Shown here in pieces: positions 9,160 through 64,000 of a stretch of DNA of 64,000 nt (the stretch's first letter is position 1; every line of letters begins with the position of its first letter). Both the position numbers and the translations under genes were made by a program. Below the pieces are notes generated by a model, which was given only the letters and a program-made list of their open reading frames with translations, was not told the DNA's origin and ran no database searches. This DNA comes from an uncultured Geobacteraceae bacterium (lineage in GTDB: Bacteria; Desulfobacterota; Desulfuromonadia; Geobacterales; Pseudopelobacteraceae). Where the stretch lies: the NCBI GenBank assembly GCA_903875605.1, contig CAIQWT010000082.1, positions 1 to 64,000 on the forward strand. Direction: 5' to 3'.

Positions 9160-9162
9160 CCA

Positions 9163-10323: not shown

Positions 10324-10324
10324 T

Positions 10325-47934: not shown

Positions 47935-49278
47935 TCACTCCAACAGCAAACGGAACGAAGTCCCTACCTCGGCCGAACTCCTTACGGAAACCGTGCCGCC
48001 ATGAGCCGTGACAAGCTCCTGCACAATTGCCAACCCCAAACCCAGACCCCCGTTTTTCCCTTTGTAGAAGCGCTCAAAAACATGTGGCAGTTCATTTTCC
48101 GGAATGCCACAACCGTTATCGGTAATTTCCAGACAGACGCGTTCACCTTCGGCAGATGCGATGATCACAACCCTGCCACAAGCAGCAATTGCCCTGATAC
48201 TGTTACTGACCAGATTGATAATAATCTGGCTGAGTCTATCTGGGTCGGCATTAAGACAAAGTGATTCAGGGCAATCAAGCAACATCACACCGTGCTTATC
48301 AGCAATAATTCGATCAAAACGCCCGATAATAGTTGCAAGATATGGTTTCAGTAAAAAGGTCTCCTTGTGCAGGCTCAAAGTGCTTGCCTCTGCCCGGGAC
48401 AATTCGTCAACACCATCCATAATTGCGGTCAGGCGACGCGCCTCATCATGCAGTGACTGGAGAGCACTCCGATCGGTCGGCAATACACTATCCAGCATTC
48501 CTTCAAGCTCACCGGAAATTATCGCCAATGGAGTGCGAAGTTCGTGTGCGGCGTTGGACAGCAGGTTACGACGCAGCTTTTCCTGAGCTTCCAGACGTAT
48601 AGCCATGCTGTTAAAACTCTGCGACAAACGGCCGATCTCATCATCTCCGGCGGTTTTGACGCGGCGGGACATTTCCCCCCTGGCGATGTCATCTGAAGCA
48701 TCAACAAGTTCGAGAATCGGGCGGGTGAGCCTCCTGGAAGCTATAATTCCAGCGAAGATCGAGATCAGCCCCAAAATTGTGACAGAAATAAGCAGCACCT
48801 TGTTAGAAGAATGGATAAAATAATCCTCTTTGATCTGATCGAGTATTCGTGCATCGAGGTGTCCGATTTCTTCCCCACGCAGATAAAGAGGATATTGAAC
48901 CGAGATACCATGTATAGATCCGGAATCGTATCCGGTTGCCTCCAGAACACGCTTGCGCATCAGCGGAGTCATCGCCGCTATAGCCTGCTCCGAATCGATC
49001 ACCGGATGGCCGGCACCATCAAACAGGCGCACCTCAACGCCAAGCTGAAGAGCCCATCCAAGATCCGTGGCAAGCGCATTGCGTTGCCACCCGGAATTAA
49101 CGTCATAACCTCCCTCAAGAAGCGCTACCACACGCTGAACCCGATCCTGCGATTCACCGTCCAGATATTTGGCAAAGTCACGCATTATGAGTTCGCGCAG
49201 CACAATTGCAGAGGAAAGGGCTATGGCAGAAATCAGAACAAACAGCAGTAGAAATTTGCAGCGCAGACTACAGCGCAT
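47935..49278 (-). CDS. Sensor histidine kinase with HAMP domain
   Basis: The 447-residue product starts at ATG 49278, overlapping the response regulator stop by 11 bases; 83 open codons further upstream lie within that gene and are not used. Two membrane helices (about 9-28 and 155-178) flank a periplasmic domain, then HAMP, a dimerisation domain with His in SNAAHELRTPLAIISGELEG near residue 245, and an HATPase domain (IINLVSNSIRA, DNGCGIPE, GLGLGLAIVQEL). This is the partner of the OmpR-type regulator. Its neighbours suggest it senses envelope or metal stress. Confidence 0.94.
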   Translation of the reverse strand: MRCSLRCKFLLLFVLISAIALSSAIVLRELIMRDFAKYLDGESQDRVQRVVALLEGGYDVNSGWQRNALATDLGWALQLGVEVRLFDGAGHPVIDSEQAIAAMTPLMRKRVLEATGYDSGSIHGISVQYPLYLRGEEIGHLDARILDQIKEDYFIHSSNKVLLISVTILGLISIFAGIIASRRLTRPILELVDASDDIARGEMSRRVKTAGDDEIGRLSQSFNSMAIRLEAQEKLRRNLLSNAAHELRTPLAIISGELEGMLDSVLPTDRSALQSLHDEARRLTAIMDGVDELSRAEASTLSLHKETFLLKPYLATIIGRFDRIIADKHGVMLLDCPESLCLNADPDRLSQIIINLVSNSIRAIAACGRVVIIASAEGERVCLEITDNGCGIPENELPHVFERFYKGKNGGLGLGLAIVQELVTAHGGTVSVRSSAEVGTSFRLLLE

Positions 49279-49972
49279 CGCGTTCTCCCGCAAACAGGTA
49301 ACCAACGCCATATACAGTTTTAAGGTACTTTGGATTGCGGGGATCTTTTTCAATTTTCTGGCGGAGATTTTTGATGTGGGCGTCAATACTGCGATCATAA
49401 CCGTCAAATTGATATCCGAGAGCACGGGATACCAGTTCATCACGGGTAAAAGTTCTGCCGGGAAATGAAGCGAGAGTGAGGAGAAGCTTAAACTCGGTCG
49501 GAGTAACCGAAATAACGTGACTTTCAATGGCTATCTGGTGGCGAAGACTATCTAGAACCAGTGCGCCTCCATTGCAAGACAAAAGACTATCAGGTGCTGA
49601 GGTATTACGCTCATAGCGTTTCAACACGGCTCTCAGGCGGCACACCAGCTCACGCGGGCTGGCCGGTTTGACCATGTAATCGTCGGCTCCGAGAGCAAAA
49701 CCAGCAATACGTTCTTCTTCAGATGATTTTGCTGTCAGCATGATAACGGGGAAATCACCAAGCTCTTTTAAACTCTGGCACAACTCTTCGCCACTGCCAT
49801 CCGGAAGGCCAAGATCAAGAATCACGGCCAGCGGAAGTTCTGCTTCGGCTTTTTGCAGAGCCTCACTGACAGTAGTTGCAAGGGTCGTTCTATAGTCAGC
49901 CCCTTCCAGATAGGCCTTCACAATCCTGGCGAGCTTGGTATCATCTTCAACAATCAGGACAGGAGGGAGCAC
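49268..49972 (-). CDS. OmpR-family response regulator
   Basis: The 234-residue product has a receiver domain (VLIVEDDTKLARIV, phospho-acceptor Asp53 in VILDLGLPDGSG, conserved Lys in YMVKPASPRELVCRL) and a C-terminal winged helix (LRHQIAIESHVISVTPTEFKLL, then DAHIKNLRQKIEKDPRNPKY). It follows the small exported-protein gene by seven bases and is coupled to the kinase gene, so the ZraP-like protein, the 139-residue protein and the two-component pair form one operon. Autoregulation is likely. Confidence 0.95.
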   Translation of the reverse strand: MLPPVLIVEDDTKLARIVKAYLEGADYRTTLATTVSEALQKAEAELPLAVILDLGLPDGSGEELCQSLKELGDFPVIMLTAKSSEEERIAGFALGADDYMVKPASPRELVCRLRAVLKRYERNTSAPDSLLSCNGGALVLDSLRHQIAIESHVISVTPTEFKLLLTLASFPGRTFTRDELVSRALGYQFDGYDRSIDAHIKNLRQKIEKDPRNPKYLKTVYGVGYLFAGERDAL

Positions 49973-49979
49973 TTGAACC

Positions 49980-50399
49980 TCAATCCAGTGAGCGGATGCG
50001 ACCGGAGCGTTTGTCGATCATGACCCGATCAATGATTTTGCCGTCTTTATCGAGAATTTCAGCTCTGAAACCCCATTTCTTTTCGATGACCCCGGAAACG
50101 CTAAATTCCTGGCCGGTGAAATGACTCAGGAGAAGAGTGCGAGCCTCCAAAGCTGTCGCCACAGGCTGGCTGGCACCGTACCAGTCGCCGCGACGTTTGC
50201 CACAACGACCCCTCATCTCCGGCCTGCATGCCCCTTCCCCTCCCCTGCACCACGATGGACCGCTGTCGCAGTCTTTTTTCCCAACGTGCTGCCGACAGTT
50301 CTTTCCTTCACCTGCACCAATCTCAGTTTGAGTGGCTGCGACAGGTTGTGCCGCCAGCAAAAGCACAAACAGCAGTGATGAAAAAAGGAACTGTTTCAT
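49980..50399 (-). CDS. Exported Cys-containing protein with PepSY-like C-terminus
   Basis: The 139-residue product has a signal peptide (MKQFLFSSLLFVLLLAAQPV, then AAT), a mid part rich in Cys, Gly and Arg (NCRQHVGKKDCDSGPSWCRGG, five Cys in about 45 residues, given here in part), and a C-terminal beta motif (FRAEILDKDGKIIDRVMIDK) like the short PepSY repeats of metal-responsive envelope proteins. It lies between the ZraP-like gene and the regulator. Function unknown, probably linked with the same stress. Confidence 0.65.
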   Translation of the reverse strand: MKQFLFSSLLFVLLLAAQPVAATQTEIGAGEGKNCRQHVGKKDCDSGPSWCRGGEGACRPEMRGRCGKRRGDWYGASQPVATALEARTLLLSHFTGQEFSVSGVIEKKWGFRAEILDKDGKIIDRVMIDKRSGRIRSLD

Positions 50400-50455: not shown

Positions 50456-50890
50456 TTACTGTTTACCGCAGGGACCACTGTTGCAGCCGCCGTTGCCTTT
50501 ACCACAGCCACCCATACCTTTTTTATCCACTCCGCCACCTCTCTGGCCGCACTCACCATCGCTCTTGCCAACAGGAAGACCACTCAGGGTACGGATGTCC
50601 TGAATTTTTGTCTGAATAATCCTGATTTCGGCTTGAAGAGCAGCGATTTTTGCCGTATCAGGAGTGGCCTTCAGGTTTTCACGCTGCGCTTCAAAACGTT
50701 TGGTCATCATTTCCTGGCGCATATCAATAGTGTCGGCCTGAAACTTACGAAACTGATCAGTAGGTACGGCAGCCTGCTGGGCACAATCACCACACCCTCC
50801 ACCCATACCGTTTTTAAAACTGGCATCTGCGCTGCTAAACATGGTAACCGCCAATACGAGAACTATTGCTGCTACGGACACTTTTTTCAT
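50456..50890 (-). CDS. ZraP/Spy-like periplasmic metal or stress protein
   Basis: The 144-residue product has a signal peptide (cleavage near SADA/SFK), a helical core (about 45-100, IDMRQEMMTKRFEAQRENLK and IAALQAEIRIIQTKIQDIRT) of the ZraP/CpxP/Spy type, and Cys/Gly clusters at both ends (GGGCGDCAQQ and GGCGKGNGGCNSGPCGKQ). ZraP is a zinc-binding periplasmic chaperone that tunes its own two-component system, which fits the regulator and kinase genes downstream. The Cys tails add metal-binding capacity beyond typical ZraP. A CCCCC-flanked GGGGGAAG site precedes the ATG. Confidence 0.8.
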   Translation of the reverse strand: MKKVSVAAIVLVLAVTMFSSADASFKNGMGGGCGDCAQQAAVPTDQFRKFQADTIDMRQEMMTKRFEAQRENLKATPDTAKIAALQAEIRIIQTKIQDIRTLSGLPVGKSDGECGQRGGGVDKKGMGGCGKGNGGCNSGPCGKQ

Positions 50891-50992: not shown

Positions 50993-51793
50993 TTACCTAC
51001 TTACATCTGCAGAAAGCAGAATAATGGATTCCAGTTCATTGGCCTCAGCGTCTGTAAGCGTTACAGGCAGCATCCTGGATCCCGGCCTTATCTCTCGAGG
51101 ATTTTTCAGCCAGTCTTTCAGGTTTTTAGCACTCCAGGCTTCATTATTACGAAAAGTCTTCGGATAATATTCAGAAAACAGTCCGGATAGATTTGGCCCG
51201 ATTTCACCGGTTCCAATTGCGCCGGACCGAAGACTCAGCAAACGGTGACAACTGCCGCATTTAGTTGAAAATACATCCGTGTTCTTTTTACCGGAATTAT
51301 TGAAATGCACCCTAACTGGTGCTGTTTCATCTGTGTTACGTCCCTGGGAACCGGCTAAAACAACATTTACAAGAGTGGTTACCCGCTCTTCATCAAGAGC
51401 GAAATTCGGCATATGTGCCACCGGGTGGCGGATCGATGTCGCAAGCTCCCCGGCGGTTTTTCTGGTTGCAGCAGCATCAAGGTTCACCGCAGTACGGTTC
51501 CCGCGTCCGGCACTGACATGACAGCGCCGGCAGGCGAGTTGATTCATCAGCTGCTCACCTTCTTTTATCTGCGCCGCATTACCGAGAGTAAAACGGGCAT
51601 ATTTCCCCGCGCGTAACCCGGCATGGGCAATGTTCTTGCGTTCTGACTCCGGATTGCCCCGATGGCAGTGACTGCAGCTGCCGAGTTCCACATAATGTGA
51701 AGGATGGCAGGGGAGGCAGAGCTGACGAGACGGCGCTCCCCACGCTGGCAGGGCCGAAACAAGCGTGATAACAATTAAAAGACCAGAGACCAA
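50993..51793 (-). CDS. Tetrahaem c-type cytochrome of the cytochrome bc-like complex
   Basis: The product (about 266 residues) opens with a hydrophobic segment and has four haem motifs: CLPCH and CSHCH close together near residues 30-45, then CRRCH near 85 and CGSCH near 185. The last two begin class-I cytochrome c domains, each with a possible Met ligand (HMPNF and SRMLPV). No ATG fits; TTG at 51793 with GGGGGG before it is the best start, overlapping the cytochrome b gene by 19 bases. It probably takes electrons from the Rieske/b module in the periplasm. Confidence 0.82.
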   Translation of the reverse strand: MVSGLLIVITLVSALPAWGAPSRQLCLPCHPSHYVELGSCSHCHRGNPESERKNIAHAGLRAGKYARFTLGNAAQIKEGEQLMNQLACRRCHVSAGRGNRTAVNLDAAATRKTAGELATSIRHPVAHMPNFALDEERVTTLVNVVLAGSQGRNTDETAPVRVHFNNSGKKNTDVFSTKCGSCHRLLSLRSGAIGTGEIGPNLSGLFSEYYPKTFRNNEAWSAKNLKDWLKNPREIRPGSRMLPVTLTDAEANELESIILLSADVSR

Positions 51794-52185
51794 TTGGCCC
51801 CCCTGAAAAACATTGCCACGAATGTCAAAGCTACAATAACGATAGCCAATATTATCGTAACCGTTGAAACTGTCTTCTGCTGGTGGGGAAACCAGTGCCC
51901 CCGCTGAATATGTGTGCCGGCAGGCAGCCATGGCAGCAGTAAAAACAGACAACCCAACAGCATGGCCGGATAGATCATCAAGCGCGACCAACTGACCAGC
52001 TCCTGAATCCAGAGCAGAAACCAGGCGGATTTTGCCGGGTTCGGGGTTACAGCGGGATTGGCCTGTTCTTGGAGCGGTACCGGAATTATTGCAGCCAGCA
52101 ACAGGAGTGACGCCAACATCGTGCCCATGGAACGGGTTATAAGTTTAAAAAAATGAGGGGAGCTTTTAACATATCCGCTTTTCAT
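51775..52185 (-). CDS. Cytochrome b C-terminal subunit (subunit IV-like)
   Basis: The 136-residue product has three membrane helices and the segment NPAVTPNPAKSAWFLLWIQE near residue 44, equivalent to the Pro-rich quinol-side loop before helix F of cytochrome b (PEWY region, here without an exact PEWY). It corresponds to subunit IV of the b6f complex. It overlaps the b6-like gene by four bases. Together the two genes make one split cytochrome b. Confidence 0.85.
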   Translation of the reverse strand: MKSGYVKSSPHFFKLITRSMGTMLASLLLLAAIIPVPLQEQANPAVTPNPAKSAWFLLWIQELVSWSRLMIYPAMLLGCLFLLLPWLPAGTHIQRGHWFPHQQKTVSTVTIILAIVIVALTFVAMFFRGANWSLVF

Positions 52186-52802
52186 AAATATGGCAGAACC
52201 CCCTTGTTTTTTCTAACTCGATAGAAGTGCAACAGCGAAAGTGCCATCACTCCCAGCGGGATAATAACAATATGGAGTGCATAAAAACGAAGCAGAGACA
52301 ACCCCTGCCCGACACCATCCGGCACAAGTAGAGAGCGGAAAAATGATCCGAACGGCAGCGTAGCCAGTAGTTCCATACCGGTCTGCGTAGCCCAGAAAGC
52401 CAACTGATCAAATGGGAGAAGGTAACCGGTATATGCTTCAAACAGCGCAAGAAACAGCAGCAGGCAGCCGATTACCCAATTAAGCTGCCTTGGGTGCTGG
52501 TAGGCCCCGGTCAGGATCACCCGCAGAGTGTGCAGCAGTATCAGCACCAGCAATGTGTGAGATGTCAGGCGGTGCAGGCCTCGTAGATACTTGCCACCCC
52601 AGACCGAAGACTCCAGGAACAGCACCGAACTGAATGCCCTTTCCGGTGTAGGCTGATAGTAAATAAGCAGCAGCATACCACTGGCAAGCATCATCAAAAA
52701 GGCGGCGAAAGCGAGTCCTCCCAGGCAGAAAGTATATCCGAAGCGAAGGTTACGCTCCAGAACCACACGGGGAAAGAGATGTTTGAGAAAATCAGTGATC
52801 AT
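52182..52802 (-). CDS. Cytochrome b6-like N-terminal cytochrome b subunit
   Basis: The 206-residue product has four membrane helices and both haem-b His pairs: HRLTSHTLLVLILLH (13 residues between) near residue 76 and HIVIIPLGVMALSLLH (14 residues between) near 177. The spacing 13 and 14 is that of cytochrome b6. The loop TGAYQHPRQLNW after the first pair also fits. It would oxidise menaquinol in the inner membrane, with subunit IV (next gene), the Rieske protein and the tetrahaem cytochrome. Confidence 0.92.
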   Translation of the reverse strand: MITDFLKHLFPRVVLERNLRFGYTFCLGGLAFAAFLMMLASGMLLLIYYQPTPERAFSSVLFLESSVWGGKYLRGLHRLTSHTLLVLILLHTLRVILTGAYQHPRQLNWVIGCLLLFLALFEAYTGYLLPFDQLAFWATQTGMELLATLPFGSFFRSLLVPDGVGQGLSLLRFYALHIVIIPLGVMALSLLHFYRVRKNKGVLPYL

Positions 52803-53056
52803 GGCTGATTATATATCACAGTTATCAGGAGATTGGTACGATTGAGCGCCTGAAATCGGTTCATGAAACAGAGGGGCACATAAACATCGATAAAACACCG
52901 ACATTATGGGTATATACCCTCATGCTGCCTGAAGGATCACAGTATTTTAAGATTTTCTCTGTGTCTCCCTGTTGAACTGTTTTTTTCAAGGTGTATTATT
53001 TGGAAACTGCCTGTGCTATTCTCCCGCCCGACATCAAACCTGAAGAGGAGAGCGGT

Positions 53057-53977
53057 ATGACCTCCATTACTGATGCACTCATTCCCGTACTGGCACTGAT
53101 CCTGGCCGGCTTTGTTATACAGCGCACCAACTTCCTCCCGCCATCGTTCTGGCCATCGGCCGAAAAGCTGACTTATTTCCTGCTCATGCCGGCAACCCTG
53201 ATCCACAACATGGCAGGCAAACAGATCGGCACCCTGCCGTGGCTTAAAATTCTGCTGACTGTGGAGGGTGCAGTACTTTCGAGTGCCTTGCTGGTAACTC
53301 TCTGGTGGTTTGCCAACCGGCGCATGGGAGGCCCGGCTTTTACATCCCTTTTTCAAGGTGGAGTACGTTTTAACACCTTCGTGGCACTGGCTCTGGCAGA
53401 AAACCTGTTTGGCAAAGACGGACTGTTTCTGGCGGCAATGGGGGCAGGCTTCATGATTATACTGATCAACGTGCTTTGCGTTTCGGCCTTTTCTCTGGCG
53501 GTTAATAACGGTACGGGTATGAGTTTTAAGCGACTTCTGACAGATCTGCTGCGCAATCCGCTAATTATCGGCTGTGTCATTGGAGTGGGACTGAACGCCT
53601 CAGGCTTAAAACTGCCGCTGGCGATTGACGGCATTCTGGCTTTGGGTGGAAAAGCGGCCTTTCCGGTGGGATTGATGGCTGTAGGTGCGGCCTATCGGGC
53701 CGACAACCTGATGCTGCATTGGCATCCACTGGTGGTAACCAGCACAGTGCAGTTTTTCTGCAAGCCCATTATCGCATGGGGGCTGGCAACATATCTTGGC
53801 CTGACCGGTGTAGCCTTAAGTGTAGCGGTGTTGCTGTTCAGCGTCCCGACAGCCCCCTCGGCCTATATACTCTCCAGACAGATGGGAGGCGACCACGACA
53901 GCATGGCCGCCATCATCACTGTACAGACCTGCCTGTCGTTTATCACCCTGCCGCTTACGATATGGCTGTTGCGCTGA
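53057..53977 (+). CDS. AEC-family (auxin efflux carrier-like) transporter
   Basis: The 306-residue product has about ten membrane helices in two inverted halves, with LIPVLALILAGFVIQRTNFLP at the start (given in part) and FSVPTAPSAYILSRQMGGD near residue 275. ATG 53057 has GAGGAGAG before it; 22 further codons are open upstream. AEC transporters move small carboxylates or amino acids. It is on the plus strand between the Rieske and cytochrome b genes and so splits the cytochrome set; nothing suggests it belongs to electron transfer. Confidence 0.88.
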   Translation: MTSITDALIPVLALILAGFVIQRTNFLPPSFWPSAEKLTYFLLMPATLIHNMAGKQIGTLPWLKILLTVEGAVLSSALLVTLWWFANRRMGGPAFTSLFQGGVRFNTFVALALAENLFGKDGLFLAAMGAGFMIILINVLCVSAFSLAVNNGTGMSFKRLLTDLLRNPLIIGCVIGVGLNASGLKLPLAIDGILALGGKAAFPVGLMAVGAAYRADNLMLHWHPLVVTSTVQFFCKPIIAWGLATYLGLTGVALSVAVLLFSVPTAPSAYILSRQMGGDHDSMAAIITVQTCLSFITLPLTIWLLR

Positions 53978-54011
53978 CCTGTGGCTCCTTGGTCAGCTGA
54001 AACAGTTGTCA

Positions 54012-54407
54012 TTACCCAACCACTTCAACCCGCCCTTCCCTGACTTCAACCTTCATTCTTACCAGCGCTCTATCCGCCGGACCTTTAAGCACCTTCCCAT
54101 GACGGTCAAAACGGCTACCGTGGCAGGGGCACGAAAGTGCATCCTCCGTGACGGTCACTGTACAGCCGAGATGAGTACAGATTAGACTTAATGCGTAATA
54201 ATTCGCATCGTCCCTGAACAGTGCCAGGCGCTCGTTGCGGAACAACAGCGCCCCTCCCGGCGGCACATCAGCTGCGGCAGCGCTTACCAGTACACGGCGC
54301 TTTCCGGTCGAACGCGGGATAAGATACCGTACCAGCACTACACCGGAGGCAAGCAGCAGGGTCAGGGTCGTGATGAATTTTCGACGCGTTTGAGGAATGT
54401 TTTCCAT
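54012..54407 (-). CDS. Rieske [2Fe-2S] protein
   Basis: The 131-residue product begins with a twin-arginine-like signal (TRRKFITTLTLLLASGVV), whose hydrophobic segment would stay as the membrane anchor. The cluster motifs are complete: CTHLGC near residue 77 and CPCHGSRFD near 93. It is short, as in b6f-type and free-standing Rieske proteins. It overlaps the nine-haem cytochrome gene by 46 bases. It is the natural partner of the split cytochrome b on the far side of the AEC gene. Confidence 0.94.
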   Translation of the reverse strand: MENIPQTRRKFITTLTLLLASGVVLVRYLIPRSTGKRRVLVSAAAADVPPGGALLFRNERLALFRDDANYYALSLICTHLGCTVTVTEDALSCPCHGSRFDRHGKVLKGPADRALVRMKVEVREGRVEVVG

Positions 54408-55561
54408 TTTTCGATGTACGCCTTTGTATAAGCCGGAGTTTTGGTGTTCATGCGCAGATAGCGTGCGGCGTCCATAAAACTTCCGTTACTGACCCGCTGC
54501 CCTTTCTGAAGCCAGAAAGATTCAAGCCCCATCCCGTCCTTTTCAAGATTGTAAATCCGTCGTGATTCCGGCTCCAGCATGAAGCGGGCAGGATTATCAT
54601 GACACCCTTCACAGGTAACAGTTCCACGCTGAACGGTGTGCGGAAAGTAGGCTCGCCATTCGGCTGCCAGCAGCGTGTTCTCCGGGCCGTTGTTTCTTGC
54701 GGTCATCACATCCGTATAATATGCGATAAACATCGGCCGGATCGGGCTCACCCTGCCACTGACGTTGATCCCGAGCGGGGGTGCATCCTGTTTTTTCAGG
54801 TAGGCACTGCGTAGATACTCTGCGCTTGCCCCCGGTGTAAGATCAAAATCATCTTTATCACGCCGATCACGGAAACGGAGGAAAAAAGTCCCGTATTCCT
54901 GAGGTGCCCAGGCCGAATGACAGGCATAACATTCAAGCCGCTGCAGATGTGCAGGAATACGATGTTCCAGAACCTTCAGGCTCGGCTTGTGACAGTCCTG
55001 ACAAACTTTGGATGTTTTTTTACCCTCTGCCAGACTGACCATAGAATGGCAGTCCCCGCAGGTCATACCGGCACTGTAATGTACATCCGGCAGCATTTTC
55101 AGAAAAGTAGCGCCGTTAACGGCAATTCCCCGCTGATAACGCATGTTATCCTCACGTGGAGCCCGCCCTGAATAATCCCATCCGGTAAAATAGCCGTTAT
55201 GGCAGCGCTGGCAGGTTGCCACCGACGGTTTTGCCAACCCCGGCCCATTGTGGCAGTCAAGACAACCCTTCAGATGACAGTCGTTGCAGTTTTTTGACCA
55301 GAAATCTGAATCAAACCGCCCGTAACTGCGCGCTACAAACTGCTTTTCGCCGCTGCGCTGTCCCATTGCATGATCAAAGATCCGCTCATGACCACGATGA
55401 CAGACTACACACCCTCCTGCACGGTTCAAGCGGGAGGCAGGATCGCTGGCAGCACCACCCTCACGGTGACACGCGATACAGGGCAGTCCTGTATGTGCGG
55501 CTGCTGCATCCTGATTAAGGACCAGACAGCAACCGACGATGCAGAGTATCATCCAACGCAC
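54362..55561 (-). CDS. Nine-haem periplasmic c-type cytochrome
   Basis: The 399-residue product has an N-terminal hydrophobic segment and nine CXXCH motifs: CIACH, CVVCH, CNDCH, CLDCH, CQRCH, CGDCH, CQDCH, CYACH and CEGCH. GTG 55561 has AAAGGAA at good distance; GTG 55594 and ATG 55552 are alternatives. It overlaps both neighbours (47 bases with the twelve-haem gene, 46 with the Rieske gene), so the three are translationally linked. A periplasmic electron carrier between the Rieske/b module and the outer membrane is inferred. Confidence 0.88.
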   Translation of the reverse strand: MRWMILCIVGCCLVLNQDAAAAHTGLPCIACHREGGAASDPASRLNRAGGCVVCHRGHERIFDHAMGQRSGEKQFVARSYGRFDSDFWSKNCNDCHLKGCLDCHNGPGLAKPSVATCQRCHNGYFTGWDYSGRAPREDNMRYQRGIAVNGATFLKMLPDVHYSAGMTCGDCHSMVSLAEGKKTSKVCQDCHKPSLKVLEHRIPAHLQRLECYACHSAWAPQEYGTFFLRFRDRRDKDDFDLTPGASAEYLRSAYLKKQDAPPLGINVSGRVSPIRPMFIAYYTDVMTARNNGPENTLLAAEWRAYFPHTVQRGTVTCEGCHDNPARFMLEPESRRIYNLEKDGMGLESFWLQKGQRVSNGSFMDAARYLRMNTKTPAYTKAYIEKWKTFLKRVENSSRP

Positions 55562-57377
55562 GATGGTTAATTCCTTTCCGGTAGATCGGGTCACTTGCTT
55601 TGTCGTGACAGGGGAGACAGAGATTCACTGAAAGAGTCCGTTTGACCTCTGCTCCGCTTAGTGGACGGGAGTTCTCACGGGTAATGGCCGAATAAGCATT
55701 GACCAGGCCGTTTTTCATCGTCAGAAAACCATCAAGGGGCTTACTGTCAGAACGCTCACAGATCAGCGTTCCCTTGATACTGGCCCCTTCGATGATATGC
55801 TGACCAAAACCGAGGAAAGCCGGATTTCCGTGACATTCAGCACAACCGAGAGTTTTTTTGCTGCTGTTATGAGAATAGAATGGCGCGAAACGAAGTTGCT
55901 GTGATCCCTTGAATTTTGAAACATATTCAGACTTTGAAAGTGAACCGTCCGCTTCGGCAACAGTTATAAATGTTTGACAGCCGGGTGTCACAGGAGAGAT
56001 GCGACCACGCTGATTGAGCGCCAGCGGAAACGGGTAGAGCATACGGTAATCCTCTGTTTCACTGAAGGAACCGGGCGTCTCCACCCGCTTAATGTAGTCC
56101 ATCCCTGTTTGCCCTTTGTCGTAGCGGGTGTGGCAGCCATAGCATTGAACTGAAGTGCGGGTGTGGCAGGCGTAACATTCCAGACGACCGTGGCCGACAA
56201 TAGTATGTTCCGGCGTGCCGGTTATTACTTTGCTGCGATGCAGCTTGCCGCTTCGTTTCCCCTGCAGCCAGACGATATTGTCTTTGTAGAATACGTTTGA
56301 ATAACTGCGCCCCTTAGCCGTCTGAATCATACGCATCCCGAAGGTAACAGGCTTTTTATAGGAGCGTGATTCGCGCATTGCTTCATCGTTTTCACGGGAG
56401 ATTTCACGGTAATGCGGCAACTCTGAAGCACCGCCGTGACAATCCTCGCAGGAAATTTCGGTTTGCAGATACATATTGCGATAAGCAAAACCGTCACCCA
56501 TAACATCACGCGACGTATGACAATCGATGCACTCCATACCGGCGGCAAAATGAACATCGGTGGTAATATGTGTCAGGTTGCGGGCACCACTGGCCATAAC
56601 CGGACCGGCTTCGCCCCCACTGGTCGGCACCAGGCCGTTGTTGCCGTCGTACAGACCTTGATAGGAAAAAACGATGCGGCCGCTGCGGTTGTGGCAGCGC
56701 GAGCAAACCTGTGCATCAGGGAGCGGGGTCATGGCGTGACTGGCGGAGTGACCAGCCCTCCCCTTCATGGTTTTATCGCCGCCCTCGTAGACTCCTTCAT
56801 TATTCCATGGAAAATGACAGGCGGCACAACCGGATGCGTGGCTGGTACTATAGACTCCTACAGTCTCAGCTCCTACATGGCAGCGAGCACATCCCTTTCG
56901 GTACAATTCCCCGGAAAGGTTATCCAGCTCAGCTACCGGCTTGGGTGAAAATGGTTTGCCATCAGCATCAAACTGTTTCTCGCCATGAGCCGTGTAGCTG
57001 CTACCATCCTCTCCTTCCCAGGTCAGTTGGATGTTACGGATCATTCCGGCGGCCGTGTACATCAGATTGCCCTTCATTCGCTCGAACTGATACCTGTGGC
57101 AGGGTGCGCAACCATTCTCCCAACGGCCGATATATTCCGGGTTGGCAATGCCGAAAACACCCTGATGCGCCTTTTCCTTAACCTCTTCATGCGGCTTGCC
57201 GCCATGACAGGAAACACAGTCACTATGGCTTTTGGAAACATGCTCAAGCCCTTTGTGACAGCGAACGCAGGAAGATTGCTGTATTCCCCGCTGACATCCG
57301 GAGAGGAATAGAGGAAGGGAAATCAGGAGCAGAAGAATGAAATGGATTTTGCCGTGCCTGGCGGTACTGATAAGCAT
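55515..57377 (-). CDS. Twelve-haem c-type cytochrome lipoprotein
   Basis: The 620-residue product, from ATG 57377, has a lipoprotein signal (LLLLISLPLFLSGCQRG, lipobox LSGC) and twelve CXXCH motifs, from CVRCH near residue 37 to CLPCH near 594. The lipid anchor points to a membrane-bound multihaem protein, most likely at the outer membrane. 35 open codons upstream of this ATG are left out, because the lipoprotein signal starts here. With the porin upstream it would form a porin-cytochrome conduit. Confidence 0.9.
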   Translation of the reverse strand: MLISTARHGKIHFILLLLISLPLFLSGCQRGIQQSSCVRCHKGLEHVSKSHSDCVSCHGGKPHEEVKEKAHQGVFGIANPEYIGRWENGCAPCHRYQFERMKGNLMYTAAGMIRNIQLTWEGEDGSSYTAHGEKQFDADGKPFSPKPVAELDNLSGELYRKGCARCHVGAETVGVYSTSHASGCAACHFPWNNEGVYEGGDKTMKGRAGHSASHAMTPLPDAQVCSRCHNRSGRIVFSYQGLYDGNNGLVPTSGGEAGPVMASGARNLTHITTDVHFAAGMECIDCHTSRDVMGDGFAYRNMYLQTEISCEDCHGGASELPHYREISRENDEAMRESRSYKKPVTFGMRMIQTAKGRSYSNVFYKDNIVWLQGKRSGKLHRSKVITGTPEHTIVGHGRLECYACHTRTSVQCYGCHTRYDKGQTGMDYIKRVETPGSFSETEDYRMLYPFPLALNQRGRISPVTPGCQTFITVAEADGSLSKSEYVSKFKGSQQLRFAPFYSHNSSKKTLGCAECHGNPAFLGFGQHIIEGASIKGTLICERSDSKPLDGFLTMKNGLVNAYSAITRENSRPLSGAEVKRTLSVNLCLPCHDKASDPIYRKGINHRALDDTLHRRLLSGP

Positions 57378-57440
57378 GTCCGGAGAAGACCTTTTGCTTT
57401 TTTGTAGTGGTCTACTATAACACGCCATTGCGAGTATCCT

Positions 57441-57480
57441 GAATAAAAAAGAGACCTGACAGGTTGTCGCCTGCCAGGTC
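57441..57480 (-). terminator. Terminator after the porin gene
   Basis: GACCTGGCAGG and CCTGTCAGGTC (minus strand) pair with one mismatch around CGACAA and are followed by TCTTTTTTATTC. It lies 31 bases after the porin stop, so the cytochrome genes are either read through it or have their own promoter (57400-57430). Confidence 0.85.
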
Positions 57481-57510
57481 ATTGTTACTGATAATTCCGA
57501 ATATGCCGGA

Positions 57511-58716
57511 TTAGAAAATCAGCTGTAACTGAGTAATAAATGTGCTGAAATCTTTTGTAGAGGCATTCCATTTATCAAATTCGGTTCTGCTGTACTCAGC
57601 TGTAAGCTTCAGATTCTGGTCACGGAAATAATAGTTTGCGCCGAATCCGTACCAATGGACAAGCTGATCATTAATGTTGTCTGCCGTGAGGCCGGCATTA
57701 TTAAGGTTAAGTGATGCAAACTGCCATTTTTCGTACCGGCCGAATAACTGCAACGGTATTGTGGGAAGCATATAAGCACCTTTTAAGTACCAACCGTTCT
57801 TCTCCCCGTTAAGCCCGACTGTTCCACTGTCAGGATTTAAACCTTTATAGGCACCGCCAAGATCAACGTTTTCGTATGCGCCGGAGAATGTAACCGTACC
57901 GATATCGGCAATTGGATACTCAAAGAAAAGGTCTGCCGTCCACCCCTTATAATCGACTGCTCCACTTTTAGCAGTGGTATCGCTGTAGGCAACCTTCGAC
58001 TCCGTCTGATATGCGCCGCCAATTGTCAGCACCTTTTTCTTACCAAGGTAAGTACCTTTGTAACCATAACCGGTTTCCGGATCAAGCAGTGAAACATGAG
58101 CGCGACCGGTGTAGCGCAAATTGGACTCTGGCGTAACCGTGCCGGTTGCAGTGCGGCCGTTCATGACATCCAGGCGATACTGGAAAATATCATTAAACAG
58201 ATTGCCCCATACGGCAACACCTTTATCGCGTGTTGCTACAAAAGGTGCGCGGATAAACAGAGAGCGGTCAAGAGTCAACGGTGCTTCGCACGCCTCCAGA
58301 TTCTCACGGGTCATATTGTACTTGAACTTGCCAACGTGAACATTGAACGCTTTATTGAATTCAAAGCGGATCTGTGCATCCAGAATAGTGAAGTCGGTAG
58401 CAGCATCGCCGTCAACCACTGTAAGCGGGGTAATATTCTGTTTTTCCAAAAACTCGGTCTGGACATACATACTCATTATTTCGCCATAGGAACCCATCAG
58501 CGCAAGCCGATTACGGCGAAAATTCAAGTCTGCGGAGCTGTCATCTTTTGAAGGTCCGCTACCGGTATCACGAGTCACAACCTGAAACTGCCCTTTATAA
58601 TCCAGCTGCAGAGAACCTTCATTATTCGGGCCAAAGGTCATCTGCGGCCCGGCAAAGGCTGTGCCGGCCAAAAGCATGCCACCCGCAAGTACCACACCAA
58701 ATATATTTATTTTCAT
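57511..58716 (-). CDS. Outer-membrane porin (OprO/P-like, ExtI-like)
   Basis: The 401-residue product has a signal peptide (cleavage near GTAFA/GPQ) and repeated amphipathic strands typical of a 16-22-strand beta-barrel, ending in LQLIF with terminal Phe. Features of phosphate-selective-porin-type proteins are seen (FRRNRLALMGSYGEIMSMYV near residue 66, FKYNMTRENLEACEAPLTLD near 131). It sits between a rhodanese lipoprotein gene and multihaem cytochrome genes, the layout I recall for extHIJKL in Geobacter sulfurreducens. It could host a cytochrome inside its barrel. Confidence 0.85.
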   Translation of the reverse strand: MKINIFGVVLAGGMLLAGTAFAGPQMTFGPNNEGSLQLDYKGQFQVVTRDTGSGPSKDDSSADLNFRRNRLALMGSYGEIMSMYVQTEFLEKQNITPLTVVDGDAATDFTILDAQIRFEFNKAFNVHVGKFKYNMTRENLEACEAPLTLDRSLFIRAPFVATRDKGVAVWGNLFNDIFQYRLDVMNGRTATGTVTPESNLRYTGRAHVSLLDPETGYGYKGTYLGKKKVLTIGGAYQTESKVAYSDTTAKSGAVDYKGWTADLFFEYPIADIGTVTFSGAYENVDLGGAYKGLNPDSGTVGLNGEKNGWYLKGAYMLPTIPLQLFGRYEKWQFASLNLNNAGLTADNINDQLVHWYGFGANYYFRDQNLKLTAEYSRTEFDKWNASTKDFSTFITQLQLIF

Positions 58717-58770
58717 CTGAGAACTCCTTTCGAATTGGTCAGCCCATAGTAGGTATTAAAATTATATACT

Positions 58771-60144
58771 TCAGCAGTGATTTCCTTCATCGACTCCTCC
58801 ACTTGTGGTGTTAGTAGCAGGTGCTGTAGTAGTAGTACCGCCGCTAGTAAAGTATGCTTTATCTTCATTAAGTATTTGGTTGGCACGCGGATCAGTAATG
58901 GAGGTGAACATTGCATTGGAAGTCGCATCCAATGTAACATAACTCCCCGGGACGATCGGTGTTACACCCGAGATATTAAAAGTACGACTGATGGTTGTCC
59001 CCGCAGTCAGTGCGTCTGTTTGCCAGACTGTCGCAACCTTGTTTGTTGTCGCGGTAGACACATACGATCCCCATTGTTGGGATGAACCGTCATATAGTGT
59101 TACCGGCCAATTAAGCATACCATCTAGTACAAAGAACGGCACTGATGCACGATGACCAGAGGCACAGTAAACATAGTTCATAGCTTTTGCAGAAGTAACA
59201 TTTTCTAAGTTTAGATAGCTAACTAGAGCAGCATTATCAAAGAATACTTGGGTCTTGGTTAAGGTCGTTGTTCCAGGTGAAAACGTGGAAGTCCAATATT
59301 TGGCATAATCGTCCATTATTGCATTTTGAATTTTAGTTGCATTGGTACCTCCACGTACGTCAATAATTGATACGCCGGAAGGAGCGGTTGCTGAAATAGT
59401 GCCTAGATTGACTTTGTCTACCAAAACCAGCATCTCGCCGATTGAATATCGAGTGCTAAAGTTGGCGGTACTGCCACTGTAAAGGTCGCGTACGCTGAAT
59501 GTTGTTGCTGTGACCGATGGAACTGTTGCCGTCAATACGTATGAAGAGCTCCAACTGCCTGCGATAGCGGCTTCTTTCCACGCATCATCCCCGCCATTCA
59601 GTATCTTCAGGCGTTCCTTGGGGAATCCCCAGTAGCGGAATGTATAATAGGCTCTTGTTGCATTCATCAAGCTTTGGGCATTACTTACCGTAAACACCAG
59701 AGTTGTGTTTTTTGTGATCCCAAAGCGCTGGACATAAGTATCCATAAGAGGGCCGGTCGGCACCTCAGCCGTGTTAGTGGCAACCCCCTCCATTCTGGTA
59801 ATGGCAAGCTCGGTAGAGGAATCGAGGAGTTGTGAGCCGGGAATGTGAAGTGCAGCGTAATTTTTTGCAGGAACAACATTTAAAATAATAACCTTGTCCG
59901 GATAAGCAGGATCGCTGTTATTTACCCTTCCTTCGTCCATCCATTGTTTTAGAGTAGCAGGTTCAATGAGTGCTGTTACTGTTTTTGTAGTTGTAACTGC
60001 CGCTTCCAAAGCTGCATTTCGTGCAGCGACGACATCATCATAGCCTTTCGTCCCGCAACCCCACAGGGTAAGCGCAGCAATCATTGCTGTCCCAAGCATT
60101 GCAGCAATCAGCGTTCTGCCCTTCTTCATAATCTTCTCCGACAT
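58771..60144 (-). CDS. Rhodanese-domain lipoprotein (ExtH-like)
   Basis: The 457-residue product has a lipoprotein signal (lipobox LWGC near residue 30) and two rhodanese-like domains, the second with an intact active-site loop YCASGHRAS near residue 329. The first (about 55-195) lacks an evident active Cys, as in two-domain sulfurtransferases. AGGAGGAG precedes the ATG. The C-terminus is a Thr/Gly-rich stretch ending in Cys. Rhodanese lipoproteins accompany porin-cytochrome conduits in Geobacter; a role in sulfur, selenium or conduit assembly is inferred. Confidence 0.85.
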   Translation of the reverse strand: MSEKIMKKGRTLIAAMLGTAMIAALTLWGCGTKGYDDVVAARNAALEAAVTTTKTVTALIEPATLKQWMDEGRVNNSDPAYPDKVIILNVVPAKNYAALHIPGSQLLDSSTELAITRMEGVATNTAEVPTGPLMDTYVQRFGITKNTTLVFTVSNAQSLMNATRAYYTFRYWGFPKERLKILNGGDDAWKEAAIAGSWSSSYVLTATVPSVTATTFSVRDLYSGSTANFSTRYSIGEMLVLVDKVNLGTISATAPSGVSIIDVRGGTNATKIQNAIMDDYAKYWTSTFSPGTTTLTKTQVFFDNAALVSYLNLENVTSAKAMNYVYCASGHRASVPFFVLDGMLNWPVTLYDGSSQQWGSYVSTATTNKVATVWQTDALTAGTTISRTFNISGVTPIVPGSYVTLDATSNAMFTSITDPRANQILNEDKAYFTSGGTTTTAPATNTTSGGVDEGNHC

Positions 60145-60254
60145 AACTCCTCCTCTTAAAAATGTGTGTGAATAAAGCTGTTACTGTTAGTGCAGCATCT
60201 CACAAAAGCTCTATTTCCTTTCACCTCCCTCGGAATTTTTTCTGCCGGTCTCTA

Positions 60255-60554
60255 CTACTGCCCGATTAGCGGATCTGCCCATTTAAACCTGACAGTAGGC
60301 TTAGACGGTACTTGCTTTTGAGATTGCTTTGTATCGTTCAGCGGTGTCTCTATTGCAGTGCGTGACGGTGGCTCAACAAGAACCTGACCATTTGAGGAAA
60401 GGTACTGCACAGCCGTAATTGATTTGACTGTAGAGTCAAGAGTTACAATTTGAGTTTTACCATCGGCATAACTTATAATTACGGAATCAGCTCGACTGAT
60501 CGAGTTGCAGAAAAGAGTGATAACGGCTGTCAGGATGATTATTAACTTGTTCAT
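60255..60554 (-). CDS. Small exported protein at the head of the conduit operon
   Basis: The 99-residue product begins at ATG 60554 with AAGGAG 10 bases before it and a signal peptide (MNKLIIILTAVITLFCNSIS, then RAD). The mature start has a beta-hairpin-like stretch (VIISYADGKTQIVTLDSTVK). It has no haem motif and no Cys in the mature part. It lies 110 bases before the rhodanese lipoprotein and is probably its first co-transcribed gene. The family is not recognised. Confidence 0.65.
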   Translation of the reverse strand: MNKLIIILTAVITLFCNSISRADSVIISYADGKTQIVTLDSTVKSITAVQYLSSNGQVLVEPPSRTAIETPLNDTKQSQKQVPSKPTVRFKWADPLIGQ

Positions 60555-60721: not shown

Positions 60722-60805
60722 GATCATCTGTTATTATGAAAATGCTATATTCTCATGAGACTATGCGCTTTACGCAATAAAACAGGGGTTTACGGGAGGC
60801 TTTTA

Positions 60806-61765
60806 ATGAGATCTGAGTATTTGCGCACACTTGTGGAGACAATTGATACCGGTAGCTTCTCAAAGGCAGCCGATAATCTTTTTATTACCCAGTCCGCGGT
60901 ATCCCGTAGAATCAAGTTTTTAGAAGAACAGTACGGATATTCGCTTATTGATCGCAGTGGACCGGTGCTTACCGCAACCGATGCCGGGTTGATTGTGATT
61001 GAAAAAGCAGAAAAAATGCTACAACTTGAAGACGATCTACTGCAGGATCTTCGGGTGCTATCCCCAAGACCGGGAATTATTTTCTGCTGCACCCCATCCT
61101 TCGGCGTTGCCTATCTGCCGGCTATTTTAAAAGATTTTATGCTGTTAAAGCCGGATATGTCGGAATTGAAGTTCTTTTTTGAAATGCCGGATAAGGTGGT
61201 AGATGGCATGCGGAAGGGGCTGTATCAGGTGGGTGTGATTGAGCATAATGAAGCCTATGAGCTTACCGATTTTGACACATTTGAACTGCCGGGAGATGAC
61301 GTTCTCTTTATCAGTTCGCCAAAATTAGAACTTGAGGATGGCGAGATGTCCCTTGAACAGCTGACCTGCTTTGATCTTTACACCAGAAAAGAAGGTTGCT
61401 GCTCAAGCAAACTGCTTCATTACAATATGAAAAAAATGGGAAGGGAATGTGCTGAATTCAATAGAGTTATTTATTATGACGACCTTCACATGATCATCGG
61501 TTCGGTACTGGAGGGGAATGGCCTCGCGTTTATATCCAAGTCCGTCGTAGCAAAATTAGTGGATGACGGTTCCCTGCGTACCCATCGGGTCACCGGATTT
61601 GATCACGGCTACATGCGTACGCTTATCGTCAACAGCGCCACTACATCAACCGCGTCACTTGGTTTTTTTATTGAGGAGATCCGGGACGTCTTCAAAAAAG
61701 TGCCGACGCAAATAAACCTTTCCGAATGCGCCATCAACTTTATCGATCAGCCATTTGCGCCGTAA
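60806..61765 (+). CDS. LysR-family transcriptional regulator
   Basis: The 319-residue product has the N-terminal winged helix (YLRTLVETIDTGSFSKAADN, then ITQSAVSRRIKFLEEQYG) and a periplasmic-binding-like effector domain (about 90-300). ATG 60806 has GGGAGG before it, so 17 codons of open frame upstream are ignored. A CCSSK motif (RKEGCCSSKLLHYN near residue 198) in the effector domain could sense redox state or metal. It is divergent from the conduit operon, the usual layout for LysR and its target. Confidence 0.92.
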   Translation: MRSEYLRTLVETIDTGSFSKAADNLFITQSAVSRRIKFLEEQYGYSLIDRSGPVLTATDAGLIVIEKAEKMLQLEDDLLQDLRVLSPRPGIIFCCTPSFGVAYLPAILKDFMLLKPDMSELKFFFEMPDKVVDGMRKGLYQVGVIEHNEAYELTDFDTFELPGDDVLFISSPKLELEDGEMSLEQLTCFDLYTRKEGCCSSKLLHYNMKKMGRECAEFNRVIYYDDLHMIIGSVLEGNGLAFISKSVVAKLVDDGSLRTHRVTGFDHGYMRTLIVNSATTSTASLGFFIEEIRDVFKKVPTQINLSECAINFIDQPFAP

Positions 61766-62160: not shown

Positions 62161-62877
62161 TTAAATAATATAATATACCATCGGTTTGGTACCGAGCTCT
62201 TCCTTATATTTGATCACGTTTGACTTGGAGATCAGCTTGGTGATCAACGCCTTCGGGTCATTAATATCCCCGAAGTAAGTAGCGCTCGCCAGACAGGTTG
62301 TTGTGCAGCGTGTCAACTCCCCTTTTTCAACGCGGTGAATACAGAAATGACATTTACGGGCGTTGCCTATAGGTGAACGCCAGTGACTGGTTCTTTTAGA
62401 TGTTTTACCGTATTCTCCTGAATTTTCCACTTCATAGGTTTTGCCATGAAAATCACCGGTGAAATATTGCCCCACATCAGCCGAACGGGCACCATACGGG
62501 CAGGCGACCAGACAATAGCGACAACCGATACACTTTTCATAATCAATGACGACAAGACCGTCATCACGCTTGTAAGTTGCGGTAACAGGACAGACCTGGG
62601 TGCAGCTAGGCGCGTCGCACTGCATGCAGGGACGCGGTAAAAAACGCATTCCGGTATTAGGGAACTCACCAATTTCCTCTTCTTTGACTGGACGGTAATG
62701 AATATCCGGTGGCGTCAGGTTTTCTGACATACAGCCAGTTGTGCAGGCATGGCAACCGATACATTTCTTCAGATCAATCGCCATGGCCCAACGCCGCTCT
62801 TTACGGGGTTTTTTAAGGGCACGCTGAAGGTCAGCATGCATGATTTCCAGAATATCCTTATCTTCAATAGCGCTCAT
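62161..62877 (-). CDS. NrfC/PsrB-like 4x[4Fe-4S] electron-transfer protein
   Basis: The 238-residue product holds four Cys clusters typical of DmsB/PsrB/NrfC subunits: CIGCHACTTGC near residue 40, CMQCDAPSCTQVC near 84, CIGCRYCLVAC near 117 and CHFCIHRVEKGELTRC near 175. No signal peptide is seen. It would carry electrons between the membrane NrfD-like subunit and a catalytic partner; no molybdopterin or catalytic subunit is in the window. It is coupled to the NrfD-like gene (one base apart). Confidence 0.94.
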   Translation of the reverse strand: MSAIEDKDILEIMHADLQRALKKPRKERRWAMAIDLKKCIGCHACTTGCMSENLTPPDIHYRPVKEEEIGEFPNTGMRFLPRPCMQCDAPSCTQVCPVTATYKRDDGLVVIDYEKCIGCRYCLVACPYGARSADVGQYFTGDFHGKTYEVENSGEYGKTSKRTSHWRSPIGNARKCHFCIHRVEKGELTRCTTTCLASATYFGDINDPKALITKLISKSNVIKYKEELGTKPMVYYII

Positions 62878-62878
62878 G

Positions 62879-64000
62879 CTAATGGGTCTCCTTTCCAGCT
62901 ATTTCAAACAGCCCGGTCTTTTCGCAGACAATGTATATAAGAGCGACAAGCGATACAGACGCCAACACCACCAGCATCTCGAAAATAGAAGGGAAATAGT
63001 TGATTCGTTCCGGAATGTCATAGGCGCGGAAGACCGGAACCCTGAACCCCTCGACGACTAGATCAAGACGCGCCATGAACTGAGTGAACAGGACTATAAC
63101 ACTCGAAACAATGAGCCATCCGGTAGTCCGTTTGTTCATAAGAATCGCAAAAGGGACGACCAGGGCACACACTATTCCGAATATGACATTCTGAAAAAAC
63201 GTTTCACGGAACACTTCATACCCGCTCAGATTGCTGGCCAGACCGATAATGATACGGCAAAAAGTGAGCACTAATACCGAGGCGAGTGCAATTTTCTGCA
63301 GCCTCATAAACGGCTTGATAAGCTTCATATTGCCTGTAGCTTTAGCATGAAAAGCAGCAATAATTGCACAAAGGGCATTGCCGCTTAAAAAACCGCTAAA
63401 AAGAAAGTAGATCGGCAGCAGCGAGCTGTAATAGTATGGCATGGTACCGACAGCTCCAAAAAGGCTGCCAAGTGAGCAATAGGTGATAATGGGAATAACA
63501 AAAGAGGTATACAGGAGCGCCTTTGAGTGTACATGGCGCTGGATGTTCACATATTCCACCAACAGAATAGAGATATCTGCGGTATACCATACTGACATCC
63601 AGAACATCGGCGAAGTCGGGTTTGGTGATATCATAAACAGATACATCCGCTCGACATGGCCAAGCTCGGAAGCGAGGGAGGCAAACCCGGCGATGGCGGT
63701 GACCAGACCCATAAAGATTACCCGAGAGGCCAAATGCTTGTACTTTTCATGAAAAAACATATTGCCAATGAAATTGGTAAAAATACAGCCACCGCTCACC
63801 AGTGCAAAATAGACATAGGTGGATATCTGCAATCCCCAGGGAACCAGGCTTGATGTGTTGATAGTATGACCATGGCCGAGGATAAAAATGCTGCCGAAGC
63901 CAAAGCCGCCAAAAACGAGTCCGATAATTGCGAGATAAACAACCAACCCTCCCTTACCCTGCTTGAACAGGCTAAAGTAGTTTAACAGCCGCTCTTTCTC
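62879..64000 (-). CDS. NrfD/PsrC-like membrane quinone subunit (5' end outside window)
   Basis: The frame is open to the right edge, so the true start lies beyond 64000; the TTG at 63946 is internal. The visible 373 residues hold about ten membrane helices and the PsrC pattern: GGFGFGSIFILGHGHTINT (given in part), WGLQISTYVYFALVSGGC, ELGHVERMYLFMISPNPTSP, and FWMSVWYTADISILLVEY. The NrfD family exchanges electrons or protons with quinones in the membrane. With the NrfC-like protein it forms a quinone-linked module whose redox partner is not seen here. Confidence 0.92.
   Translation of the reverse strand, partial: EKERLLNYFSLFKQGKGGLVVYLAIIGLVFGGFGFGSIFILGHGHTINTSSLVPWGLQISTYVYFALVSGGCIFTNFIGNMFFHEKYKHLASRVIFMGLVTAIAGFASLASELGHVERMYLFMISPNPTSPMFWMSVWYTADISILLVEYVNIQRHVHSKALLYTSFVIPIITYCSLGSLFGAVGTMPYYYSSLLPIYFLFSGFLSGNALCAIIAAFHAKATGNMKLIKPFMRLQKIALASVLVLTFCRIIIGLASNLSGYEVFRETFFQNVIFGIVCALVVPFAILMNKRTTGWLIVSSVIVLFTQFMARLDLVVEGFRVPVFRAYDIPERINYFPSIFEMLVVLASVSLVALIYIVCEKTGLFEIAGKETH

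Follow-up and report, generated by a model that had tools for sequence, protein, structure and literature searches.

The closest described relatives of the genes analysed here come from Geobacter. A 2010 paper presented GSU2937-2930 as a conserved gene cluster for a bc complex and a candidate quinol oxidation site (PMC2825233), which has had no acceptor assigned to it since. The cluster extHIJKLMNOPQS of Geobacter sulfurreducens (GSU2940-GSU2930) was reported in 2018, and a ΔextI mutant was reported to convert less selenite and tellurite and to have no Fe(III) citrate defect (PMC5877670). extHIJKL has been treated as a putative electron conduit, and in a strain retaining it alone, reduction of Fe(III) oxide, Mn(IV) oxide, and Fe(III) citrate reached at most 50%, 75%, and 20%, respectively, of the wild-type level (PMC6148476). 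The MNOPQ(R) half is elsewhere named CbcMNOPQR, in Geobacter metallireducens Gmet_0533-0539 (PMC10989804, PMC10470525). For polysulfide respiration in Desulfurivibrio, a porin, a three-rhodanese transferase, and Psr have been proposed to work jointly (PMC12142623). Here we describe an ext-type locus in a stretch of 64,000 nucleotides (hereafter the window) from an uncultured Geobacteraceae bacterium (assembly GCA_903875605.1, contig CAIQWT010000082.1, positions 1 to 64,000).

The window locus is nearly certainly a variant of the ext/Cbc cluster already known from, and widely shared in, Geobacter; it lies beside genes for a Psr-like molybdenum enzyme. Six of its proteins (ExtH, ExtI, ExtM, ExtN, ExtQ, and ExtS) match their NCBIfam models at equivalog level. 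Comparison with related loci hints that the terminal enzyme of the cluster is exchangeable. The most likely reading, at a probability of about 0.5, is respiration of chalcogen (sulfur, selenium, or tellurium) species by a periplasmic terminal reductase, with the porin and the rhodanese handling the substrate; this figure applies to the mechanism and not to the identity of the cluster.

The window locus compared with known clusters

The window shares with the G. sulfurreducens cluster ExtH, ExtI, a 12-haem ExtM, ExtN, ExtO, ExtP, ExtQ, and a 4-haem ExtS in identical order, and an upstream LysR gene on the opposite strand (the cluster's LysR is given in the figure 9 legend of PMC6148476). Unlike that cluster, it lacks ExtJ and ExtKL, has Psr/OTR-like genes upstream, encodes an ExtN with 9 haem motifs instead of 10, and carries a permease gene between ExtO and ExtP. 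With CbcMNOPQR it has in common the ExtM-S half, namely the Rieske/b core and three multihaem cytochromes, but its version is split by the permease and paired with Psr-like genes. The main features are as follows.

50993..51991 (open reading frame limits), minus: ExtS, tetrahaem c-type cytochrome; 4 CXXCH; NCBIfam ExtS 320 bits (cut-off 100), residues 71-322; true start probably near 51.8 kb, inside this frame
51775..52185, minus: ExtQ, membrane protein at the position of the cytochrome b C-terminal subunit; NCBIfam ExtQ 176 bits (cut-off 150)
52182..52802, minus: ExtP, b6-like cytochrome b; Pfam Cytochrome_B/Cytochrom_B_N_2, E 1e-33; NCBIfam ExtP 224 bits, under the cut-off of 290
52991..53977, plus: AEC-type permease between the ExtO and ExtP genes; Pfam Mem_trans, E 3e-14
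54012..54407, minus: ExtO, Rieske protein; Pfam Rieske, E 1e-14
54362..55594, minus: ExtN, nonahaem c-type cytochrome; 9 CXXCH; NCBIfam NF040967 597 bits (cut-off 200), NF040968 603 bits
55515..57482, minus: ExtM, dodecahaem c-type lipoprotein cytochrome; 12 CXXCH; NCBIfam ExtM 1014 bits (cut-off 800); true start probably 3' of the hairpin
57453..57480, minus: terminator-like hairpin between extI and extM, from the terminator-like site scan; position repeated in relatives
57511..58716, minus: ExtI, outer-membrane porin; NCBIfam ExtI 630 bits (cut-off 150); Pfam Porin_O_P; 16 long strands in the AlphaFold2 model
58771..60144, minus: ExtH, rhodanese-domain lipoprotein; NCBIfam ExtH 377 bits (cut-off 200)
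60755..61765, plus: divergent LysR-type regulator; NCBIfam multiheme cytochrome-associated LysR, 354 bits (cut-off 210)
62161..62877, minus: PsrB-like Fe-S protein; profile matches
62879..64000, continuing on the contig to ~64039, minus: PsrC/NrfD-like membrane protein; Pfam NrfD, E 4e-21

A sequence-only reading of this DNA had taken porin-cytochrome conduits and Cbc complexes to be encoded separately as a rule, and the Rieske/b6f-like part to be apparently less described. We dropped the idea that the joining of the two halves is novel after obtaining the matches to NCBIfam Ext models and the published cluster descriptions: it is not new, because both GSU2937-2930 (PMC2825233, in print since 2010) and the GSU2940-2930 cluster with the same adjacency (PMC5877670) had already been published. 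The genes that this reading listed do lie within 9.6 kb on the minus strand, but they do not form one uninterrupted run, since the permease gene, on the plus strand, separates the Rieske gene from that for cytochrome b. The region it delimited also omits the LysR gene, the PsrB/PsrC-like genes (62161 to the window end), and PsrA with part of an OTR-like gene beyond the window.

These upstream genes follow the LysR gene on the same strand as the ext genes, in the sequence PsrB-, PsrC-, and PsrA-like, and then the end of a gene for an OTR-like octahaem cytochrome at the contig end; PsrA and the OTR-like part lie past the window end on the window's contig. The closest solved relative of PsrA is the Thermus polysulfide/thiosulfate reductase (677 bits). 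As in Thermus PsrABC (PDB 2vpw), the contig encodes a PsrA-like molybdopterin subunit of the twin-arginine translocation type, a four-cluster Fe-S subunit, and an NrfD-type subunit, the full set of a PsrABC/Phs-type reductase, upstream of the ext genes. At its end, contig C107 of the same genome carries the opening part of this OTR-like gene, preceded by genes for a three-rhodanese single-haem protein (rhod3) and a DUF3373 protein. Because C107 and the window contig (C82) overlap by 16 bases at these ends and the two OTR parts adjoin, the genes very probably form one stretch: DUF3373 - rhodanese - OTR - PsrABC - LysR - ExtH - ExtI - ExtMNO - permease - ExtPQS. A paper on the Psr/ext pairing was not found in the open-licence PubMed Central literature, which is weak evidence of novelty.

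The extI and extM reading frames are 28 bases apart, without ExtJ and the selenocysteine-containing pentahaem ExtKL between them. At 1e-20, ExtK matched nothing in the window's genome, which is 99.25% complete, although it found matches in 33 of 141 genomes of the order, strong ones in 31. SelB exceeds its cut-off in 121 of the 141 genomes, but not in that of the window. We considered whether ExtKL loss followed SelB loss, which was not supported: G104 and other relatives lacking ExtKL have SelB over cut-off, and in three ExtKL genomes, G049, G050, and G126 (84-85% complete), SelB is not over cut-off.

Partner exchange among ExtM loci

We compiled 140 ExtM regions, 60 from a first genome set and the best 80 of 203 relatives from a named genome collection; 44 were near-copies (>99.5% alike), leaving 96 distinct ExtM loci. 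Partners were counted at the 72 loci with at least 4.5 kb upstream, leaving out 24 with less. Psr only was found at 26 loci, ExtKL with ExtI at 24, ExtI with Psr at 7, ExtI alone at 6, and ExtKL alone at 1. In total, ExtKL occurred at 25 loci and PsrA at 33 (one of these, a weak PsrA at L172, lies on the opposite strand), and never both together (Fisher p 1e-9, uncorrected for kinship). At the genome level, 8 of 56 PsrA genomes were left out (one fragment, seven at 524-568 bits), and the 48 retained include only 1 of the 31 strong ExtKL genomes (G125). The substitution is most direct in L153, with the order I-J-PsrA-PsrB-PsrC-M-N-O-P-Q-S, where PsrA, PsrB, and an NrfD-type gene fill the usual place of ExtKL. 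In a quick tree of 73 ExtM sequences the partner label changes at least 14 times (KL 5, Psr 8), with starred branches forcing at least 4 KL and at least 6 Psr changes; exchange has therefore occurred repeatedly. Window ExtM falls in a starred set of 12 rows, nested in a larger starred set whose 32 rows are mostly Psr loci.

Of the 73 loci covered for 4 kb or more downstream, 54 encode all of N, O, P, Q, and S, and among loci with both flanks the full set accompanies KL at 24/24, Psr at 18/22, ExtI with Psr at 5/6, ExtI alone at 1/6, and no partner at 3/6. A DUF3373 porin or three-rhodanese protein is encoded at 18 of the 24 Psr loci with 9 kb upstream. In L176, L177, and L180 a related PsrA/PsrB-type molybdenum enzyme with its Fe-S subunit is followed by O-P-Q-S, and M, N, and, unlike in Thermus PsrABC, an NrfD-type gene are absent within the stretch. 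L176 has full-length ExtH and ExtI before the molybdenum enzyme, L177 a distant ExtI relative (170 bits), and L180 only an ExtI fragment. A fourth locus with such an enzyme (L178) has an ExtI relative and no O-P-Q-S; in L179, L181, and L188 the sequence ends too early to judge O-P-Q-S. Because of the arrangement in L176, L177, and L180, we suggest that the Rieske/b module can pass electrons straight to a molybdenum reductase and that the large cytochromes are not required by the porin.

Transcription units

In the window a terminator-like hairpin separates extI from extM, and 12 of the 14 loci that have ExtI but lack ExtKL show one at this place, the exceptions being L121 and L153. Of the 24 KL loci, 21 have it between ExtKL and ExtM and only 6 after ExtI, compared to 4/96 in shuffled controls; in Psr loci without ExtI it was found between PsrB and ExtM in 0/5. 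The window has 21 terminator-like sites against 13.7 expected, and single sites were for this reason counted only where relatives repeat the position. The promoter scan gave 18 sites against 14.7 expected and was not used. As the hairpins recur at the seam before ExtM, the cluster is probably not one operon; porin genes and cytochrome/Rieske genes probably belong to separate units that meet at a conserved seam, and in the window the permease probably splits off PQS as a third unit. An AEC gene lies downstream of ExtM in 5 of the 96 distinct loci.

Haem, Rieske, and porin features

The 25 CXXCH motifs counted in the sequence-only reading were confirmed (ExtS 4, ExtN 9, and ExtM 12; means for shuffled versions of the three 0.008, 0.04, and 0.05). 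Across 77 ExtN sequences the haem motif count is 9 in 34 and 10 in 43. The assignments of a Rieske protein, an outer-membrane porin, and a rhodanese-domain lipoprotein in the sequence-only reading stand as ExtO, ExtI, and ExtH. Window ExtO carries the motif CTHLGC...CPCHGS, and the canonical two-part motif is found in 76 of 80 ExtO sequences checked. Despite its NCBIfam score under cut-off, ExtP is clearly a cytochrome b/b6 by its Pfam match, and it has the four-histidine pattern of a cytochrome b, the pairs 77/91 and 177/192 being 14 and 15 residues apart. This spacing, which we take to be b6-type, recurs in 70 of 72 ExtP sequences. The subunit IV-like label for ExtQ is supported by position and by the NCBIfam model, but the Pfam cytochrome b C-terminal domain was not found in the window protein. 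A subunit IV normally carries a PEWY-type Qo motif; all 68 ExtQ sequences checked have x(S/A)AWF, a SAWF-type motif at a place like that of the PEWY-type motif.

The AlphaFold2 model of ExtI (29-row alignment, mean predicted local distance difference test score (pLDDT) 65.5, predicted template modelling score 0.66) has 16 strands of at least 9 residues and one short strand. Its nearest solved folds in Foldseek are OprB, OprO, OprP, and OmpF/OmpC-type porins; in VIA-align the best matches span Z 23 to 18, with OprB at Z 23.1 across 319 residues and OprO at Z 20.7. ExtI is thus predicted, with modest confidence, to be a 16-strand diffusion-type porin. Mtr-type barrels were not among the 50 best rows for the model in either program, which is no proof of absence. 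The ExtI sequence profile gave a single chance immunoglobulin match among PDB chains (E 0.087), and ExtN gave no PDB match under E 0.5. For the DUF3373 porin from related loci the AlphaFold2 model was unusable (pLDDT 34). The active-loop cysteine of the rhodanese is aligned in 37 of 37 ExtH sequences.

Proposed function of the cluster

The gene content and order, the conservation of the modules, the partner exchange, the absence of ExtKL, and the hairpin at the seam are observations, whereas all electron-transfer steps, the substrate, and the roles of porin and rhodanese are inferred. The Rieske/b6-like complex ExtO-ExtP-ExtQ would oxidize menaquinol, and ExtS, ExtN, and ExtM would carry electrons across the periplasm toward the outer membrane. 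In the terminal step a sulfur, selenium, or tellurium species would be reduced by an exchangeable periplasmic reductase, ExtKL elsewhere and, in the window's genome, PsrABC with the OTR-like cytochrome. ExtI may let the chalcogen species pass the outer membrane, and the ExtH rhodanese may hold the chalcogen atom or hand it over. In line with the sequence-only reading, the genes suggest that menaquinol is oxidized to supply periplasmic cytochromes, next to a porin of the outer membrane, and of the acceptors which that reading named, sulfur or selenium compounds are the best supported. Judging from the exchange between ExtKL and enzymes of the Psr type, the task of the Rieske/b cluster would be chalcogen reduction. 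The single pathway to the outside that the reading proposed is not supported, given the hairpins at the seam, the partner switching among genomes, and the predicted diffusion-type porin.

More tentatively, ExtOPQS may be a portable quinol-oxidizing module for chalcogen reductases, plugged into ExtKL or Psr-type molybdenum enzymes, to which porin-rhodanese pairs able to stand in for each other (ExtI with ExtH, or the DUF3373 protein and the three-rhodanese cytochrome) would deliver extracellular polysulfide, sulfur, or selenium/tellurium species. If so, ExtOPQS would even replace the NrfD quinol subunit in L176-type loci, and the window genome would hold both pairs around one such system. Several observations weigh against chalcogen respiration. 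The confidence of the ExtI model is modest; the chalcogen substrate of the Psr-like enzyme is putative; PsrA scores 506 bits against a PhsA cut-off of 694, and the OTR-like proteins reach 156-158 bits against a cut-off of 375. Related loci inflate the Fisher values, 8 of the 72 loci have neither ExtI, ExtKL, nor PsrA, and the exclusion of KL and Psr is not absolute, since G125 holds ExtKL and PsrA ~8 kb apart in a cluster without ExtM. Finally, the opposite-strand LysR gene lies between the Psr and ext genes of the window, which are therefore not one transcript.

Ranked next after chalcogen respiration, though rather doubtful, is a true outer-membrane conduit formed by ExtHI and ExtM, in which a periplasmic or lipoprotein cytochrome would dock in or at ExtI and electrons would pass to ExtH or directly to outside acceptors, giving with ExtOPQ a continuous menaquinol-to-outside route. 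The partial reduction of Fe(III) citrate and of the oxides of Fe(III) and Mn(IV) reported for extHIJKL alone speaks for it, as do the abolition of Fe(III) citrate reduction on loss of all five clusters (PMC6148476) and the altered membrane haem proteins of ΔextI (PMC5877670). The two halves also co-occur, contrary to what would have spoken against a joint pathway: ExtM is over cut-off in 53 of 54 genomes with ExtI over cut-off. However, 31 of 84 ExtM genomes lack ExtI over cut-off, and porin and rhodanese occur with O-P-Q-S and a molybdenum enzyme without M or N. As in Mtr/Pcc conduits, a barrel is encoded near multihaem cytochromes, but the window barrel is predicted to have 16 strands of a diffusion-type porin, and no gene for an outer-surface multihaem cytochrome was found beside it at the locus, the sole gene in that place encoding the haemless rhodanese lipoprotein ExtH. 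The partner exchange also cautions against taking every porin that adjoins multihaem cytochromes for an electron conduit.

It is unlikely, and less probable than the conduit, that the halves are independent neighbours, with ExtMNOPQS a general menaquinol:cytochrome c oxidoreductase for the periplasmic cytochrome pool, ExtHI (JKL) a separately transcribed chalcogen-handling unit, and the adjacency a result of shared conditions. The hairpins before ExtM fit this arrangement, ExtMNOPQS occurs with different partners or none, and CbcMNOPQR is reported as highly expressed yet not required in direct interspecies electron transfer or on Fe(III) oxide (PMC10470525). Yet three families of the order (f1, f3, and f4) retain the adjacency, every KL locus with both flanks has the full set from N to S, and the repeated pairing is with chalcogen-type reductases, not random genes. 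Detoxification of selenite and tellurite, or selenium supply, in place of respiration is very improbable. The greater sensitivity of ΔextI to selenite and tellurite (PMC5877670) would fit detoxification, but a Rieske/b complex with 25 haems would be an expensive route, and supply for selenoproteins is unlikely because SelB is not over cut-off in the window genome.

Other genes and loci

Two further minus-strand features lie at the edges of the cluster.

50456..50890, minus: ZraP-like periplasmic protein, found repeatedly downstream of the cluster; weak match to NCBIfam ZraP, 31 bits (cut-off 200); same position in relatives such as L099-L103
60255..60554, minus: small secreted protein, recurrent neighbour; homologues adjoin extH/extI in relatives

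The transcription order on the minus strand from 60,554 to 50,993 is small secreted protein, ExtH, ExtI, ExtM, ExtN, ExtO, ExtP, ExtQ, and ExtS. The NCBIfam model NF040968, named iron-sulfur subunit ExtO, matches the 9-haem ExtN and not the Rieske protein, and by this comparison its label looks wrongly assigned. Contig C107 also encodes a more distant ExtI relative, accompanied by a LysR gene of its own, at G000:C107:29026-30399 (L185 ~8922-10500), beside genes of 454, 374, and 1072 residues whose sizes resemble an RND efflux set.

Other arrangements of the cluster were also seen. In a split form, L189 (G092:C34) encodes a DUF3373 porin, a rhodanese, N, O, a permease, a 562-residue ABC1/UbiB-like protein, P, Q, and S; it lacks ExtM, and ExtH-ExtI-ExtM of that genome lie on another contig (L043). 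In L035/L102 and L041/L103, ExtH-ExtI-ExtM-ExtN are followed by permease, ZraP-like, and kinase genes, and ExtO, P, Q, and S are missing at the site. A sensor kinase/regulator pair (47935-50399 in the window) and the ZraP-like neighbour recur downstream of ExtS in relatives, which suggests metal or envelope stress control.

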